Positions 1 through 6,784 of a DNA stretch of 51,731 nucleotides are shown here, piece by piece. Origin of the DNA: an uncultured Halieaceae bacterium (GTDB lineage: Bacteria > Pseudomonadota > Gammaproteobacteria > Pseudomonadales > Halieaceae). Made by a program: the position numbers and the translations under genes. Position 1 is the stretch's first letter. Each line of letters begins with the position of its first letter. Location: NCBI GenBank assembly GCA_913057135.1, contig CAJXNM010000020.1, forward strand, positions 1-51,731, written 5' to 3'. The notes under the pieces were generated by a model that saw only the letters and a list, made by a program, of their open reading frames with translations, did no database searches and was not told the DNA's origin.

Positions 1-1
1 C

Positions 2-103
2 AGACACCCACCGCAAATTCGCTGGAAGCGCGTTATCGACCCAGAGCGGACCCAGGACGCCTATGATATCGGCAATTCAATCAAGTCTCTGTATTTTTAT
101 TAG
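2..103 (+). CDS. 3' end of an unidentified gene (partial)
   Basis: A reading frame is open from the window edge to a TAG at 101-103, giving 33 residues that start RHPPQIRWKRV and end KSLYFY. It stops 13 bases before the end of the convergent nuclease gene, a normal tail-to-tail arrangement, and the composition is protein-like with many charged and aromatic residues. I do not recognise the family. A chance open frame of this length is possible, so confidence is limited. Confidence 0.35.
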   Translation, partial: RHPPQIRWKRVIDPERTQDAYDIGNSIKSLYFY

Positions 104-116
104 ACAGGGGAATTGG

Positions 117-2042
117 CTAACCAAAGCTCTCCCTAATCGCCTCTTGTATGTGATACGCATGGCTGAGCTGCGTATTTAGCTGCTGAAACAGCGCCTCTTC
201 AGCTTGGATCAGTTCTTTGACTCTTTCAATACTAAGTGATCTTTTCTTGCTGCTACAAACAGGGCACCATGATTTAGCTTGAAGAATGTTATTCGCTGTA
301 GCTTGCCAGTAGTGTTGATGTCCGCAGCGCCAAATCATCTTTTGTCTGTTATTAATATAGTGTTTTGATATGAGTGTACCTGATTTGAGGTTAGCAGCCT
401 CAGCGAGCGCCTCTATAGATAACGCGTACTTGCGTCCTGTTATCAGCTTCCCACATTTTTGACAGCCAAGAGGTTTTTTTAATCTTCCGAGATCTGTCGT
501 AAATTGATGGTTATTTCCACATTTGACCAGATACTTGATCGGCACAGAGTCAGATTGGACCTCCAGAAGTTGCCATTGCCTTACAGCCAATAGCTCATCA
601 ATGACGGTGATTGGCGTCCTACGTTTCTGTGACAACTCTTCGTTTGCACATTGTCTACACCAAGTGCCTTGTACAATTGACCCCGGAACGGCTGTCCACG
701 GTGGATGTTTATCGTTACCACAGTGCCACAACAAAGGGCTTTGACTATTGAAGTATACCTCCGAGATAAGGCGGCCACCTCTGTTTGTTGCGATACACCG
801 TAGCCTGTTGAGTTCATCTTGGCGACCGGTTTGTACTGTACTAACGTCGAGCTCACTTTTGTTTTTTATAAGATTCCTCAGAGTCTTACTGAGCCTGGCA
901 ATTATGAAATCTTGGATTTCTCCTAGATCAATCCAGTATGGGATTTCGAGTAGCTGTACGCCCTGATGTTGACATTGTTGACGTTTATATTCGTCCCAAC
1001 TCAAGCGTGTTTCAAAATCTTCTCTAGATTTATGGAAAAAGGGTAGAAATTCATAGTGCTGCTGTCCTTGGTACTCAAATGCAAGACCCAGCTCTTGACT
1101 ATACCCATCTAGTTCGAGCTTGTTACCGATGTCATTAATAAGCCAATCAGGTTTGGTCTTCGGAAAAGGAACCTCAAATAGGTGTTCAAAAACTGCTCGA
1201 CAAATCGTCTCGCTGACGCCTCTAAGATTGCAGGTGTTGCACCCATGTCCCTGCTCTAAAGTATACAGCCGCACAATGTTCGTGTGGCCAACCTCGCAAA
1301 TGTAATGGACATAAATTGTTGATTTGGTTGCTGACTCCTTTCTGCGTTCTAGCTTTTGAAACGTACCGCCAACTTCACTTACAGCTCTCATGGCTCGTTT
1401 TTCATACACATCACCGTCAAGCGCTACACCGCTGTTACAACTTGGGCACCAGCTACCGCCGCCTTTAACGGAGTCTGGTGATGCCTGCCATTCACTACCG
1501 CATTGGTTGCATTTCCAGACGAGCTTCGACTTAGCATCGATGTACTTATCAGATAGCAGCTCTCCATTTCTATCGACAGCGAGTGCCTTTAATTCTAGAA
1601 GAATCTCTTCTTTAGAGCGCTTAGTTGGGTCGCATTCTCGACACCAAGAGCCAGCCAATATCGATTGGGGCTTGATAGGAACTCGCTTGTGTCCTTTTCC
1701 GCAATCAATATAAATTTCGGTTCGGTTGTTTATATAGTCTCCATCGACCCATCTGCCTCCGTTTTTTACGATGGCCGCCTCAAGGTTGCCTATTAGCTGC
1801 TCTTTAATTGGGTCTACTTTACTTTTTGATATTCGCTCACCCAGGCAGGGCTGCTCTGGACACCAGGTCGGTTTTCTTTTTCGCAGTAGATTTGAAATCA
1901 ATGGCCGAAAAATATGACCTCTTTTACATTGAATCTCTACTCTCCCGTCAACCAGTGTGTTGCCGGACAACAATTGTCCGCCCATTGATTCGACGTAATT
2001 AAGTAATTTTGATTGCCTCTCAGGACTAATTATCCGTTTCAC
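117..2042 (-). CDS. Seven-zinc-ribbon protein with central Vsr/homing-type nuclease domain
   Basis: 641 residues with a GTG start and only a weak ribosome site. Seven repeated modules of about 40-50 residues each carry two Cys/His pairs: C39/H43/C61/C66, C114/H118/C134/C137, C178/C181/C199/C202, C249/H253/C268/C271, C441/H446/C462/C465, C508/H512/C527/C530, C573/H575/C593/C596. Several share a GG-x-Y-I-N-N-R lead and a G-x-W-C-x-x-C end, like the probable zinc-ribbon family DUF4379. Between modules 4 and 5 (about 274-395) lies a nuclease-like domain with LDGY (D312), FEYQGQQHY (E323, Q325, H329), D350 and K353. This resembles the Vsr-like EDxHD fold of phage homing endonucleases. DNA binding and cleavage are inferred. 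Base composition is clearly AT-richer than the rest of the window, suggesting transfer. It could be a homing, mobile-element or defence nuclease; no partner gene is visible. Confidence 0.8.
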   Translation of the reverse strand: MKRIISPERQSKLLNYVESMGGQLLSGNTLVDGRVEIQCKRGHIFRPLISNLLRKRKPTWCPEQPCLGERISKSKVDPIKEQLIGNLEAAIVKNGGRWVDGDYINNRTEIYIDCGKGHKRVPIKPQSILAGSWCRECDPTKRSKEEILLELKALAVDRNGELLSDKYIDAKSKLVWKCNQCGSEWQASPDSVKGGGSWCPSCNSGVALDGDVYEKRAMRAVSEVGGTFQKLERRKESATKSTIYVHYICEVGHTNIVRLYTLEQGHGCNTCNLRGVSETICRAVFEHLFEVPFPKTKPDWLINDIGNKLELDGYSQELGLAFEYQGQQHYEFLPFFHKSREDFETRLSWDEYKRQQCQHQGVQLLEIPYWIDLGEIQDFIIARLSKTLRNLIKNKSELDVSTVQTGRQDELNRLRCIATNRGGRLISEVYFNSQSPLLWHCGNDKHPPWTAVPGSIVQGTWCRQCANEELSQKRRTPITVIDELLAVRQWQLLEVQSDSVPIKYLVKCGNNHQFTTDLGRLKKPLGCQKCGKLITGRKYALSIEALAEAANLKSGTLISKHYINNRQKMIWRCGHQHYWQATANNILQAKSWCPVCSSKKRSLSIERVKELIQAEEALFQQLNTQLSHAYHIQEAIRESFG

Positions 2043-2065
2043 AGGGAAGTGCCGATAATTGTGTT

Positions 2066-2080
2066 GATCAGGTGATGATC
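2066..2080. promoter_or_regulatory. 15-bp inverted repeat upstream of the nuclease gene
   Basis: GATCA-N5-TGATC arms form an inverted repeat 24-38 bases upstream of the nuclease gene's GTG. This position suits an operator or autoregulatory site, but the arms are only five bases long and no clear promoter hexamers accompany it. Low-confidence suggestion only. Confidence 0.2.
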
Positions 2081-2244
2081 CTATAAGTAATTCTCACTGC
2101 TCGCAAAGTGCCATCTTCATCCTGCCAAATATCATTGAAAGCGTCTGCTTCTGGCCGATAGCAGACACAGCAATAGAACAACTGCCTGAACCCAGACGGT
2201 CCCCTAGGGTATTACTGCCAGCACTCACCAGCGACTGTTAAGCC

Positions 2245-5200
2245 TTAATCCAGAATAGGTGCCAGCCAGCGTCGTAAGATATCGGTGCTCATTGCTTTTC
2301 GTTGTGCCAAGGATGCGAGCTGGTCCTCCCCAATTTTACCGACTGAGAAATATCGGGCTTCGGGGTGTGCGAAGTAAAATCCGCTAACAGCGGCCGTCGG
2401 ATACATGGCAAAGGTCTCGGTGAGGTGCACGTCGCAATTGCGCTCCACATCCAGTAACCGAAACAACGTTTCTTTTTCCAGATGGTCGGGGCAGGCGGGG
2501 TAGCCCGGGGCAGGCCGTATGCCTCGGTAACGCTCGCGAATCAGTTCGTCATTGCTGAGTTGCTCATCGGGTGCGTAGCCCCAGAACTCGGTCCGTACGC
2601 GGCGGTGCATGTGCTCGGCGAAAGCCTCTGCAAGCCGGTCGGCGAGTGCTTTTAGCATGATGGCATTGTAGTCATCGTGTTCCGCTTCGTAGGCGCGTAC
2701 ACGTTCATCGACACCGTGGCCCGTGCTCACGCAGAAGCCGCCTATCCAGTCCCGGGGGCCTCCCTCAGGCGCAACGTAATCGGCTAATGATAAGTTGGCT
2801 TCACCTTCTCGTTTCTGAAGTTGCTGTCGGATTTGATGCAGATCAGCCAAGGGTTCCCCTTGATCATCGAATAGCCGAATGTCGTCTTGGTTAACACGCT
2901 GTGCTGGCCAAAAGCCGATCACCGCCCGCGCACTTAGCCACTGCTCATCAATAATACGCTCGAGCATGGCTTTGGCATCGGCAAACAAAGTTCTGGCCTG
3001 CTCACCGATAATCGGATCGTCCAGTAGCTTGGGGAATTTGCCATGCAGATCCCACGTAATGAAGAACGGTGTCCAATCGATGGTGTCGACAAGACTATCT
3101 AAAGGGTAGTCATTAAACACGCGCACGCCGGTAAAGGTGGGTGCCGGCGGCTGGTACTGTTGCCAATCAAAGCTGGCACCCCGGTGTACGGCCTCTTCAT
3201 AGCTGATGCGTTCACTGCGCTGCTTGCGATTGGCCACCCGCTCACGAACCACGGCATATTCGGCGTCGATGTCGGCTCTGAAACGGTCGCGCTTATCCCC
3301 CAGCAGTTGACTGGCCACCGAGACGCTGCGCGAGGCATCTGGCACATAGACGACAGCATTATTGTGATAGTTCGGCTGAATTTTGACCGCGGTATGCGCC
3401 TTGGACGTCGTGGCTCCGCCGATCATTAGCGGCACATCAAATCCCCTACGCTGCATTTCGCTGGCCACATGCGCCATTTCTTCAAGGGAGGGGGTAATTA
3501 ATCCCGATAGGCCAATGATGTCGACTTGCTCCGCCTGTGCCACCCGAAGGATTTCGTCGCAGTGGACCATGACCCCCAAGTCGATAATGTCGAAGTTGTT
3601 ACATTGCAAAACAATGCCGACGATGTTTTTGCCAATATCGTGGACATCACCTTTTACCGTGGCTAACAGGATCTTACCGTTATTACCCGCACCTTCGGAC
3701 TTCTCCGCTTCGATAAACGGTTGTAAATAGGCAACCGCCTGCTTCATGACGCGCGCCGATTTGACTACCTGTGGCAGGAACATCTTACCCTCGCCAAACA
3801 GATCGCCCACGGTGTTCATGCCATCCATAAGCGGACCTTCGATGACTTGGATGGGGCGTTCAAAAGCCTGACGAGCTTCTTCGACGTCGATTTCAATATA
3901 TTGAGTAATGCCCTTGAGCAGTGCGTATTCAAGCCGCTTGGCAACCGGTTGTTCGCGCCAGCTCAGGTCTTCCGTACGCTGCTGGCCAGCACCGCTGCCC
4001 CGGTAGCGATCGGCAAGTTCGAGCAGCCGCTCGGTGGCATCGTCCCGTCGATTGAGCACAACGTCCTCTACCGCATCGCGCAGGTCCTCGGGTAAGTCAT
4101 CGTAAACCGCTAGTTGGCCCGCATTGACGATACCCATGTCCATGCCGGCGCGGATAGCGTGGTACAAAAACACGGAGTGGATAGCTTCCCGCACAGGGTT
4201 GTTACCGCGGAAAGAAAACGACACGTTCGAGACGCCACCCGATACCCGCGCACCAGGCAAATGGTTGCGAATCCAGCGACTGGCTTCGATGAAATCCACT
4301 GCGTAGTTGTTGTGCTCCTCAATACCGGTACCAATGGCAAAGATATTGGGATCAAACATGATGTCGTGGGGATTGAAGTCCAGACGCTCGCGCAACAGGT
4401 CATAACAGCGCTGACAAATAGCAATGCGCCGCTCTAGGTTATCGGCTTGACCGTTTTCGTCAAAGGCCATGATGACCACCGCGGCGCCGTAGCGTTGGCA
4501 CAGGGCGGCCTGCTCGAGAAATTCCTCTTCGCCGGCTTTTAAGCTAATGGAGTTCACCACCGGCTTGCCCTGAATGCACTTCAGCCCCGCTTCAATGACT
4601 GACCATTTAGAGGAGTCAACCATGAAGGGCACGCGCGCAATGTCAGGCTCGGCTGCGGCCATACGCAAGAAGGTGACCATGGCCTCTTCCGCATCGAGCA
4701 TGCCTTCATCCATGTTGACGTCGATGATTTGCGCACCGTCCTCAACCTGGGCGCGGGCCACTTCCAGAGCGGCGGTGTAGTCCCCATCGAGAATCAGTCG
4801 TTTGAACTTGGCAGATCCGGTTACGTTGCAGCGCTCGCCCACATTCACGAAGTTTTTGCCCGAAAAATTGAAGGGCTCAAGTCCACTCAGACTCGTGTCC
4901 TTAAGTGGTGCTGGGAGCTGTCGCGGTGGTTTGTCCGCAACCGCATCGGCAATAGCGCGAATATGATCCGGTGTGGTGCCACAGCAGCCGCCGGCTAGGT
5001 TCAGGAAACCGCGCTCGGCGAATTCAGCAAAATCACTGTGCATATCGGCGGGCTGTTCATCGTATTCGCCAAAGGCATTGGGCAGCCCAGCGTTCAAGTG
5101 CGCGCTGAAGTAGCAGTTCGACACCGAGGCCAGCTCCTCGAGGAAGTGCTGTACTTCTTTGAAGCGTCGACCACAGTTGCTACCCACTATGAGCGGTTTG

Positions 5201-5934
5201 GCGTGGGCAAGCGCGGTCCAAAAGGCAGCGCCGGTCTGGCCCGACAGAATACGACCGCTGGTGTCGGGAAACGTCACCGACAGCATGATGGGCAATTCAA
5301 TAGCGCGTGCATCGAAGGCGGCACGAATGGCGAACACGGCGGCTTTGGCATTGAGCGCGTCGAAAATGGTCTCCACCATCAGCACATCAACACCGCCATC
5401 AATGAGTGCATCGGTGGCCACCCTGTAGTTATCCACCAGGGTGTCGAAATCAATGTTGCGTGCGCCCGGATCATTCACATCGGGTGAAATCGATGCGGTG
5501 CGCGGGGTTGGGCCCAGTACACCTGCAACAAAACGGGGCCGCGCGGGATCCCGCTGACTTACCTCATCGGCCACGGCGCGGGCGACACAAGCCCCCTGGT
5601 AATTGATGTCATAGACTGCGCTTTCTAAACCGTAATCGCTCTGTGCAACCGCGGTACCGTTGAAGGTGTTGGTTTCAATGATATCGGCGCCAGCGTCCAG
5701 ATAAGCTTTGTGTATCGCGGCGACGACATCGGGGCGAGTGAGATTGAGCAGATCATTGTTGCCCTTGAGTTCAGAGGGATGGTCGGCAAAAGACTCGCCT
5801 CGGTAATCCGCCTCTTGAAGTTGATAGTCCTGAATCATTGTGCCCATGGCGCCGTCGATCACCACGATGCGCTGCTCGAGAGCGTTGATTAGGTGAGCTA
5901 TTTGTGGCTTGGTGTAAGACGGAAATGCGGACAT
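2245..5934 (-). CDS. metH: Cobalamin-dependent methionine synthase
   Basis: 1229 residues, the usual length. It transfers a methyl group from methyltetrahydrofolate through cobalamin to homocysteine in the cytosol. Domains in order: homocysteine-binding (about 1-350, zinc ligands C254, C317, C318 in GGCCGTT), pterin-binding (from about 360, [11 protein letters not shown]), cobalamin cap and B12-binding domain with DVHDIGKN (H765 the lower cobalt ligand), and the C-terminal SAM-dependent reactivation domain with [12 protein letters not shown]. The ATG has a GAGGAAG ribosome site 8 bases upstream. Oddity: the loop after C254 reads NCGRRF where the E. coli enzyme, from memory, has NCALG. It is divergent from nfuA; a perfect palindrome lies in its presumed promoter. 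I found no cobalamin riboswitch upstream. Confidence 0.98.
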
Positions 5935-5966
5935 AACGTGGGCTTCCTCAAGTGAGAGCGCAATAT

Positions 5967-5982
5967 ATCAAAATATTTTGAT
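5967..5982. promoter_or_regulatory. Perfect 16-bp palindrome in the metH promoter region
   Basis: ATCAAAATATTTTGAT is a perfect 16-base palindrome 33 bases upstream of the metH start codon. On the minus strand it is followed directly by TATATT (5962-5967), a plausible -10 element, so the palindrome would sit between -35 and -10, where repressors commonly bind. It does not match the MetJ box (AGACGTCT) or the MetR consensus. An operator is inferred; the regulator is unknown. Confidence 0.45.
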
Positions 5983-6044
5983 GGATTGCTAGTGTGCGGC
6001 GTTTTATGGGCACTATGCCAACTGGGATGTACTCACTGTCGGGA

Positions 6045-6073
6045 TTTAACCTAGTGTAGAAGTCGGGTATTAT
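6045..6073 (+). promoter_or_regulatory. Possible sigma-70 promoter of nfuA
   Basis: TTTAAC (6045-6050), a 17-base spacer and TATTAT (6068-6073) face nfuA. The -10 matches five of six consensus bases and the -35 only three, so this is a moderate candidate. It would start transcription about 130 bases upstream of the ATG and leave a structured leader. Confidence 0.35.
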
Positions 6074-6079
6074 CCGGGG

Positions 6080-6124
6080 CTGCGACGGTTGGGCACCGCG
6101 TGCATCGCAGGCGTCTCGTTTTTT
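6080..6124 (+). promoter_or_regulatory. Hairpin with trailing T-run in the nfuA leader
   Basis: CTGCGA (6080-6085) pairs with TCGCAG (6105-6110), with an inner CGGT/ACCG stem, followed after eight bases by six T residues (6119-6124). This resembles a weak intrinsic terminator or attenuator, lying just after the suggested nfuA promoter. The gap between stem and T-run lowers confidence. Confidence 0.3.
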
Positions 6125-6151
6125 CCAACCGGCAGGTTTACCTAACAGCCG

Positions 6152-6199
6152 GATCCAGCAAATAGGATCCATCCAAAAGAGAGATCCATTTAAAAGAGA
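6152..6199 (+). repeat. 17-bp tandem repeat in the nfuA leader
   Basis: GATCCATCCAAAAGAGA (6166-6182) is followed without a gap by GATCCATTTAAAAGAGA (6183-6199), 15 of 17 bases identical. A shorter, more diverged unit, GATCCAGCAAATAG (6152-6165), precedes them. The array ends about 10 bases before the nfuA ATG, so the last unit overlaps the ribosome-binding region. Function unknown; slippage duplication or a translational control element are both possible. Confidence 0.8.
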
Positions 6200-6208
6200 G
6201 TAGGGCTC

Positions 6209-6784
6209 ATGATTACCATTACCGAATCGGCGCAAACCTATCTTGCAGAGCTCCTGTCCAAGCAGGCAGACGCCCTGGGTGTGCGAGTATTCATCAATCA
6301 GCCGGGAACCCCTCGGGCAGAGACCTGCATTGCGTATTGCCGAGAGGGCGATGTCAAAGAGGGTGATGTCGAACATGATTACGGCACCTTTAAAGCGTGG
6401 TTCGAGGGCCGGAGCCTGCCTTTTCTCGATGACGCTTTGGTTGATTACGCCGCGGACCGAATGGGCGGTCAGCTAACCATTAAAGCGCCCAACGCCAAGA
6501 TGCCCCGGGTAGATGACGACAGTCCCATTGAGGATCGTATCAATTACATTCTCTACAACGAGGTTAATCCGTCGTTGGCAGCCCATGGCGGTGAGGTCTC
6601 ATTAATCGAGGTCACCGACGACCAGTTCGCTATTTTGCGCTTTGGCGGTGGTTGTCAGGGCTGTAGCGCGGTTGATGTCACCTTGAAAGACGGTGTTGAG
6701 AAAACCCTGCTCGACCAAATTCCGCAGCTGGCTGGGGTCCGCGACATGACGGACCACAGCGACCGCAGTCAGGCCTATTACTGA
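6209..6784 (+). CDS. nfuA: Fe-S biogenesis scaffold/carrier NfuA
   Basis: 191 residues, the normal NfuA length. The N-terminal half is a degenerate A-type (IscA-like) domain. The C-terminal half is the Nfu domain with the cluster-binding C149-x-x-C152 in GGGCQGC. NfuA carries a [4Fe-4S] cluster to client enzymes under oxidative stress or iron shortage. It is divergent from metH, an association also seen in Pseudomonas, and convergent with the DAHP synthase gene with only 8 bases between the two stop codons. The leader carries a 17-bp tandem repeat and a hairpin. Family assignment is secure. Confidence 0.97.

Follow-up and report, generated by a model that had tools for sequence, protein, structure and literature searches.

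In this work, we describe a gene at the edge of a 51,731-nucleotide stretch of DNA from an uncultured Halieaceae bacterium, hereafter called the window, which probably encodes a mobile DNA endonuclease of the homing type. The 641-residue protein, in which a nuclease domain is sandwiched between zinc modules, is a free-standing member of a known, little-studied group of homing endonucleases. In the mechanism that we propose, the modules on both sides would bind a long DNA site, the central EDxHD/Vsr-like domain would break it, and repair of the break from a gene-bearing copy would let the gene spread. DNA binding through the modules, cleavage and mobility are presumed for the window protein, as is the likeness of its behavior to that of its relatives; the two module blocks may read the two sides of the cut. 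A first-pass annotation, made from the window's letters, had imagined a long site read in steps and cut once, which may be how such a protein works.

The gene, its surroundings and its protein

The annotation had placed the gene correctly; it is a 641-codon ORF on the minus strand (Table 1). It is present in one copy in its genome and lies at a contig edge, base 1 of the window being base 1 of contig C20 and the contig ending 116 bp beyond the nuclease stop codon. The DNA is AT-rich, as had been remarked: GC content is 44.8% in the gene versus 57.1% from base 2245 on, where the minimum among 159 overlapping gene-sized segments is 52.2%. The truncated ORF tail at the very end of the contig, whose stop is separated from that of the nuclease gene by 13 bp, had no Pfam match and no clear relative in searches. 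This close convergence resembles the arrangement of an SMC gene and a nuclease gene in an archaeal relative (locus L241, 16 bp), and is reported as a lead only. The tail (2-100) was considered as a target gene and rejected, since its repeats within the window reach at most 25 bp and no clear relative was found; a 16-residue similarity between the tail and the start of the nuclease (E 0.26) was judged to be due to chance.

On its other side, the nuclease gene is separated by 202 bp from metH, which lies upstream. Downstream of metH, the nuclease is absent in all 10 congeners examined. A nitrite/sulfite reductase gene follows metH in two of the ten; in the window's genome it is found on contig C6, with ParE/Phd and ArsR-type genes extending up to the contig end. 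Judging from gene order, these data fit an island between metH and the reductase gene, contigs C20 and C6 being unjoined. Reductase, DUF934 and Na/H-exchanger genes (L118, L119; contig C6, 76-85 kb) follow metH in some congeners. The 3' end of metH was rejected as a displaced target, its remnant being absent from 8.8 kb of contig C6. Searching positions 1-6500 of the window for Rfam families at E up to 1 gave no match, and hence no intron was found there.

Table 1. Features at the contig edge of the window
Feature	Coordinates	Strand	Remarks
ORF tail	2..103	+	33 aa + stop; convergent with nuclease gene; cut by contig end
Zinc-module nuclease gene	117..2042	-	641 aa; GTG start, TAG stop
C-terminal long helix	123..230	-	residues 605-640; AlphaFold2 model
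Zinc module C3	252..401	-	residues 548-597; E=9.5e-20
Zinc module C2	447..596	-	residues 483-532; E=1.9e-8
Zinc module C1	645..797	-	residues 416-466; E=4.4e-19
EDxHD/Vsr-like nuclease domain	846..1235	-	residues 270-399; HMM and AlphaFold2
Zinc module N4	1227..1328	-	residues 239-272; E=1.4e-5; partial HMM match
Zinc module N3	1434..1586	-	residues 153-203; E=1.1e-20; best DUF4379 (PF14311) match
Zinc module N2	1629..1772	-	residues 91-138; E=3.1e-13
Zinc module N1	1845..1997	-	residues 16-66; HMM E=2.5e-8
metH	2245..5934	-	flanking core gene, named from sequence alone

The seven related zinc modules that the annotation had noticed, four on the N-terminal side of the nuclease domain and three on its C-terminal side, were recovered by an HMM built from 194 modules of relatives, with all window sequence left out. 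They match at residues 16-63, 92-137, 153-203 and 239-272 on the N-terminal side and 417-466, 484-532 and 548-597 on the C-terminal side, with domain E values of 1.4e-5 to 1.1e-20 and scores of 11.5-59.9 bits; of 1000 shuffles of the protein, 142 yielded any module at E<0.1, none of them more than 2, and the top shuffle score was 10.4 bits. The ligands, as read from the sequence, mostly follow the pattern Cx3-4H...CxxC; the first module ends in CPEQPC, the third has CxxC replacing CxxxH, and the fourth matches the HMM only in part. Pfam recognizes the protein through DUF4379, a treble-clef zinc finger, above cut-off and through CapR below it. Among the 503 modules of the window and its relatives, 481 are nearly complete; these share three ligand cysteines without exception and the histidine at 96%, a conservation partly built in by choosing the HMM seeds by a C-H-CxxC pattern, and the common frame is GGKCLSxxYxNxxTKLxWxCxxGHxWxAxPxxIKxGxWCPxC.

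The central domain, which the annotation had called a Vsr/homing-type nuclease, is of the Vsr/EDxHD-like type. Its LDGY (311-314) and FEYQGQQHY (322-330) motifs are present, as are D312 and E323, and a nuclease HMM, again built without the window, matches the protein at E=5e-49. The key residues are E278, D312, E323, H329, D350 and K353, and the order E-D-H-D fits the EDxHD name. Conservation was assessed in 113 nuclease domains, no two of them identical, that matched the HMM at E<1e-8 over 85 or more model positions: D312 and E323 are found in all 113, H329 in 112 (1 gap), D350 in 112, E278 in 111 (2 gaps) and K353 in 110. As the search patterns themselves contained D312, E323 and H329, only E278, D350 and K353 are independent of the way in which the set was gathered. 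All 36 aligned domains also keep cysteine 357, which lies within the nuclease domain and is not part of a zinc module. We take the E-D-H-D order to be that of the I-Bth0305I active site, residue by residue; the catalytic type is the same, but PDB sequence searches gave no I-Bth0305I match to the window protein, and no Vsr match either.

The annotation had named the lack of a nuclease fold as an outcome that would speak against it; instead, the domain modelled alone is predicted to fold confidently (AlphaFold2 with 36 sequences, pLDDT 94.5, pTM 0.85). For the whole protein (29 sequences) the mean pLDDT of 84.9 and pTM of 0.43 are those of a model with well-folded units in an uncertain mutual arrangement. 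In a PDB structure search with the domain, the first and third matches are Vsr structures, 1vsr and 1cw0 (TM 0.41 and 0.52 by query length, probability 0.63 and 0.72), with non-significant E values of 0.35 and 0.58, and Foldseek found no PDB match to the full-length model at E<=0.001. Among predicted viral protein structures there were 84 matches at E<=0.001, the best at 3e-13; six of the best 50 of these 84 are named as zinc-ribbon or treble-clef proteins, and the five best are giant-virus zinc-ribbon, treble-clef and restriction-endonuclease-like proteins (Klosneuvirus, Fadolivirus and others), with E of about 1e-12 to 3e-13, 37-44% identity and TM 0.82-0.88 by query length. Pfam, run on 36 nuclease domains, reports DUF2726 weakly in 16 and a RAP domain in one. 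The nearest nuclease domain to that of the window in the tree (support 0.78) belongs to a viral-contig ORF of 176 aa (L144, 1760-2290) with a hydrophobic N-terminus and without modules.

A domesticated or dead copy, devoid of present mobility and acting, for example, as a regulator or repair factor, might look similar in some respects: the gene is an isolated single copy, homing genes commonly decay (PMC13405050, in the part of its text available), and three relatives (L006, L031, L039) are broken. The 641-aa open frame and the retention of all catalytic residues, however, make this explanation very improbable compared with a homing-type endonuclease.

Known systems, layouts and movement of relatives

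The annotation knew the layout from no described system. The combination itself has been described: in the accessible part of PMC12350094 (Merk, Jones, Eddy 2025), phage group II intron homing endonucleases carry 3-5 CapR/DUF4379/DUF723-like modules and a C-terminal EDxHD/Vsr-like domain, module-EDxHD/Vsr endonucleases are termed a large unrecognised outgroup with thousands of UniProt hits, and free-standing homing genes are said to exist. The window protein likewise joins tandem zinc modules of about 60 aa to an EDxHD/Vsr-like nuclease, and it matches PHROG 559 at E=3e-60 and PHROG 681 at E=1.1e-43; PHROG 559 has a VSR signature and is located in introns of terminase genes (PMC11878797, partial text). 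Related systems include the phage T5orf172 homing endonucleases, whose DNA-binding parts are CapR and related zinc domains (excerpts of PMC10448857), and I-Bth0305I, an EDxHD homing endonuclease with an extended multi-domain DNA reader and a very long target (review PMC3943268, seen as a partial text). Unlike the intron-borne proteins of PMC12350094, in which, as far as its available text goes, the nuclease follows the modules, the window protein has modules on both sides and no detected intron. Similarly, no intron was found in 32 loci of relatives at the gathering threshold.

Homologues are found in phages and plasmids; the other outcome that the annotation had considered adverse, homologues that are all chromosomal and unrelated in function, was not obtained. 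Searches by tblastn matched 156 phage records, none with 80% coverage, some of the 40 listed being annotated as VSR or intron-associated homing endonucleases, and 40 plasmid records, two of them with 80% coverage. Among 146 genomes of relatives, the whole protein was detected only in its own, two other matches being stretches of about 60 residues; class-wide, 6 of 369 genomes had matches, five of them partial. One genome per species was then scanned, giving 46 loci from Bacteria and Archaea, and an alignment-based scan of viral contigs gave 128 relatives, from which the 80 best were retained. Peptide patterns of the window protein, by contrast, found nothing in viral contigs.

Modules on both sides were detected in 30 of the 46 genome loci, on the N-terminal side only in 5, on the C-terminal side only in 1 and on neither in 10. 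Hence, of the novelty claimed for the layout, its difference from the published C-terminal nuclease stands (the publication being known from partial text), but its uniqueness does not. Among the best 80 of 128 viral loci, 19 have both sides, 43 the N-terminal side only and 18 none; nuclease matches were found in five of the 8 plasmid loci examined, four with both sides and one with the N-terminal side only. The 4+3 layout of the window protein is also that of four genome loci, one viral locus and one plasmid locus. These counts consider one best ORF per locus, take in loci cut by contig ends or frameshifts and viral loci with near-identical records, and rely on an HMM whose seeds were drawn from the loci counted. 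The sandwich layout, found in Bacteria, Archaea and viral contigs, is a large, little-described part of the nuclease family; the literature searched, mostly listings and partial texts, yielded no description of it, nor of the Lokiarchaeal elements presented below. Two different sandwich nuclease genes lie in tandem in a Micrarchaeota genome (L022, 3998-6937), and nuclease-profile matches number four, six and four in the Lokiarchaeota genomes G525, G526 and G528 and 1-2 in seven others.

Bacillota-type sandwich genes have moved between unrelated sites. One set of copies (L005, L006, L028, L032) shares 82-91% DNA identity over 1.5-1.8 kb and a second one (L027, L029, L030, L031, L039) 79-92% over 1.6-2.6 kb, in both cases at unrelated sites. 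Each set spans different genera, all filed as Bacillota except for L032 (Pseudomonas sp. ISL-84); L005 and L006 are plasmids. A 510-bp stretch (81%) is common to the flanks of L030 and L031, its distance from the gene differing between the two. In the L031 genome, the upstream flank occurs a second time; this copy was rejected as an empty site, because it ends at a rearrangement. The nuclease copies are under purifying selection, with dN/dS of 0.12-0.21 in all six pairs of intact copies. Location at unrelated sites is not predicted by classical homing, and counts against it.

These copies also bear on the possibility that the nuclease is a restriction-like defence enzyme, which recognizes and cuts incoming DNA. 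In four of the five loci of the second set (L027, L029, L030 and L039), the nuclease gene has moved together with DNA of a gene for an Mrr-like restriction endonuclease, which lies directly upstream (Mrr_cat E=2e-35 in L029). The Mrr-like gene forms an open frame in three of these four, is not listed as one in L030, and L031 retains only a short piece of it. The AT-rich composition of the window gene and its absence downstream of metH in the 10 congeners would also suit a defence gene. However, no PADLOC defence model matched the window protein better than E=0.024, and the only flank proteins recurring in the 46 loci are the Mrr-like one (three loci) and a Lokiarchaeal SMC (two loci). Four other pairs of loci have one common flank protein each, at 28-38% identity, and the likeness of the L059 and L060 flanks is that of copies of one locus. 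Duplicated host gene ends, described in the next section, are not expected of a defence gene either, and we regard this function as unlikely.

Duplicated gene ends in Lokiarchaeota

The nuclease gene of L046 and L047 is convergent with an SMC-like gene (SMC_N E=1.4e-30), which is matched in 18 of the 19 Lokiarchaeal genomes of the genus. Its 3' side could be assessed in 14 of them, since in G540, G546, G549, G550 and G551 the gene was not found, was weakly matched or was cut by a contig end. A nuclease lies beside SMC in four genomes (G525, G526, G537, G543), and all four feature a second SMC 3' end, of 41-76 aa, before the next conserved gene; whole-genome searches found no second end in any of the 10 genomes lacking a nuclease beside SMC. 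At these ten empty sites, no nuclease is present in the 6-7 kb fetched, except for a weak nuclease-like ORF in L249 (domain E 0.01), about 5 kb from the SMC site. Three of the four occupied genomes share the starting point of the displaced copy, immediately past the Walker B motif, and have similar element ends before it. In G537 (L243), the SMC remnant is 41 aa long and the nuclease is 27-31% identical to the others. The displaced ends in L241 (9893-10123) and L242 (18084-18314) are 76-aa open frames with a start codon, and directly precede the next gene. The gene following SMC was considered as scpA and rejected as such, Pfam giving only Ish1, Rho_N and HeH domains.

The SMC elements measure 9-17 kb where both SMC parts share a contig; in G526 the two parts are on different contigs, and L244 is cut by a contig end. 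In L242, SMC and nuclease are separated by a 190-aa ORF. The size and the varied cargo of three of these elements, with several genes common to those of L242 and L243, would be compatible with a nuclease carried as a passenger by another enzyme, an integrase or transposase, which made the gene-end duplications; integrases also give rise to duplicated gene ends. On the other hand, no recombinase family was recognized in 7 ORFs of the L241 element, three of which had no match at all (the scan included four ORFs of L242 and none of L243), and the nuclease is the only gene common to the L241 and L242 elements. The two smaller inserts described below, whose unmatched DNA holds a nuclease ORF or a nuclease fragment, also speak against a passenger, and we consider this explanation improbable, somewhat more so than a defence function.

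Cleaner junctions were obtained for these two inserts because G537 is a close empty sibling of G526. At the ATP-grasp gene of G526, a 215-bp portion of the 3' end is present twice, the two copies being separated by 1,468 bp of unmatched DNA that includes one nuclease ORF. Identity to the sibling is 94.9% for the displaced tail and only 76.3% for the tail in use, against 92.3% for the gene body adjoining the latter, which means that the tail in use arrived with the element. The extra 3' copy is found in G526 only, among 19 genomes. The FGGY-kinase gene of the same genome has its first 145 bp in duplicate, on either side of 1,413 bp of unmatched DNA with a nuclease fragment; as each copy matches the sibling at 97-98% identity, a foreign origin of either cannot be told. 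The extra 49-aa copy (96%) is again confined to G526, a short match in G539 being read as a gene split over two contigs.

Repeats also flank the nuclease at the 5' end of a RibD-type gene (L270) and at the 3' end of a helix-hairpin-helix protein gene (L268), and a 58-bp repeat pair flanks it in L272. Overall, repeats spanning the ORF and tight on one side were found for 7 of 16 Lokiarchaeal nuclease ORFs versus 5 of 138 control long ORFs, and repeats tight on both sides for 3 of 16 versus 1 of 138. Removal of L241, L242 and L243, regions fetched because of their SMC repeat, leaves 5 of 13 and 3 of 13, respectively. In 15 non-Lokiarchaeal regions, by contrast, none of 16 nuclease ORFs had tight repeats on one side (controls, 5 of 104) or on both (3 of 104), which restricts the signature to the archaeal relatives.

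According to the module HMM, the eight repeat-flanked loci include sandwiches (L241, 1+3; L242, 1+4; L268, 2+2), layouts with modules on the N-terminal side only (L243, 3+0; L270, 3+0; L266, 1+0) and two loci with no detected module (L267, L272). The cleanest gene-end case, L266, is a one-module protein with no Pfam match, and the nucleases of the two cleanest inserts have no detected C-terminal modules. The gene-end signature therefore belongs to the nuclease family in Lokiarchaeota and not to the sandwich layout.

Probable homing and gene-end rescue

A close parallel is offered by the mORFs of fungal mitochondria, reported in Allomyces (atp6) and Glomus (atp6, atp9, cox2, nad3): in the text of PMC3630166 that is available, a LAGLIDADG or GIY-YIG mORF arrives with a foreign gene 3' end and pushes the native one downstream, and it is the displaced end that is closest to the insert-free relative. 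Similarly, the Lokiarchaeal insert at the ATP-grasp gene has replaced a gene end and has the displaced tail nearest to the empty sibling; the Lokiarchaeal inserts differ from this partly seen precedent in that their nucleases are archaeal, of EDxHD type, and found at gene 5' ends too. A mobile element of Heimdallarchaea has a different, rRNA-type homing endonuclease (PMC8813620, partial text). On the evidence of gene-end identities and repeats, the archaeal relatives add gene-end rescue to what is likely break-and-copy homing.

A wider hypothesis, tentative and more doubtful than otherwise, is that zinc-module EDxHD nucleases, the sandwich ones above all, are natural home-and-rescue elements across domains of life: the arrays would recognize the two halves of a conserved coding motif, between which the nuclease would cut, and the diverged gene end brought by the element would keep the host gene working while no longer matching the target.

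Free-standing homing genes must avoid killing the gene that they invade, and the Lokiarchaeal relatives are small inserts in cellular genomes which bring a replacement gene end with them. Replacement gene ends are also built on purpose in home-and-rescue drives, according to partly accessible sources. The candidate target sites, such as the one just after the Walker B motif of SMC, make target choice, and possibly a zinc-module code, directly testable. If the wider hypothesis were true, a comparison of occupied with empty alleles could show which DNA each 60-aa module reads, because the elements sit at their targets, and could thus lead to a modular recognition code.
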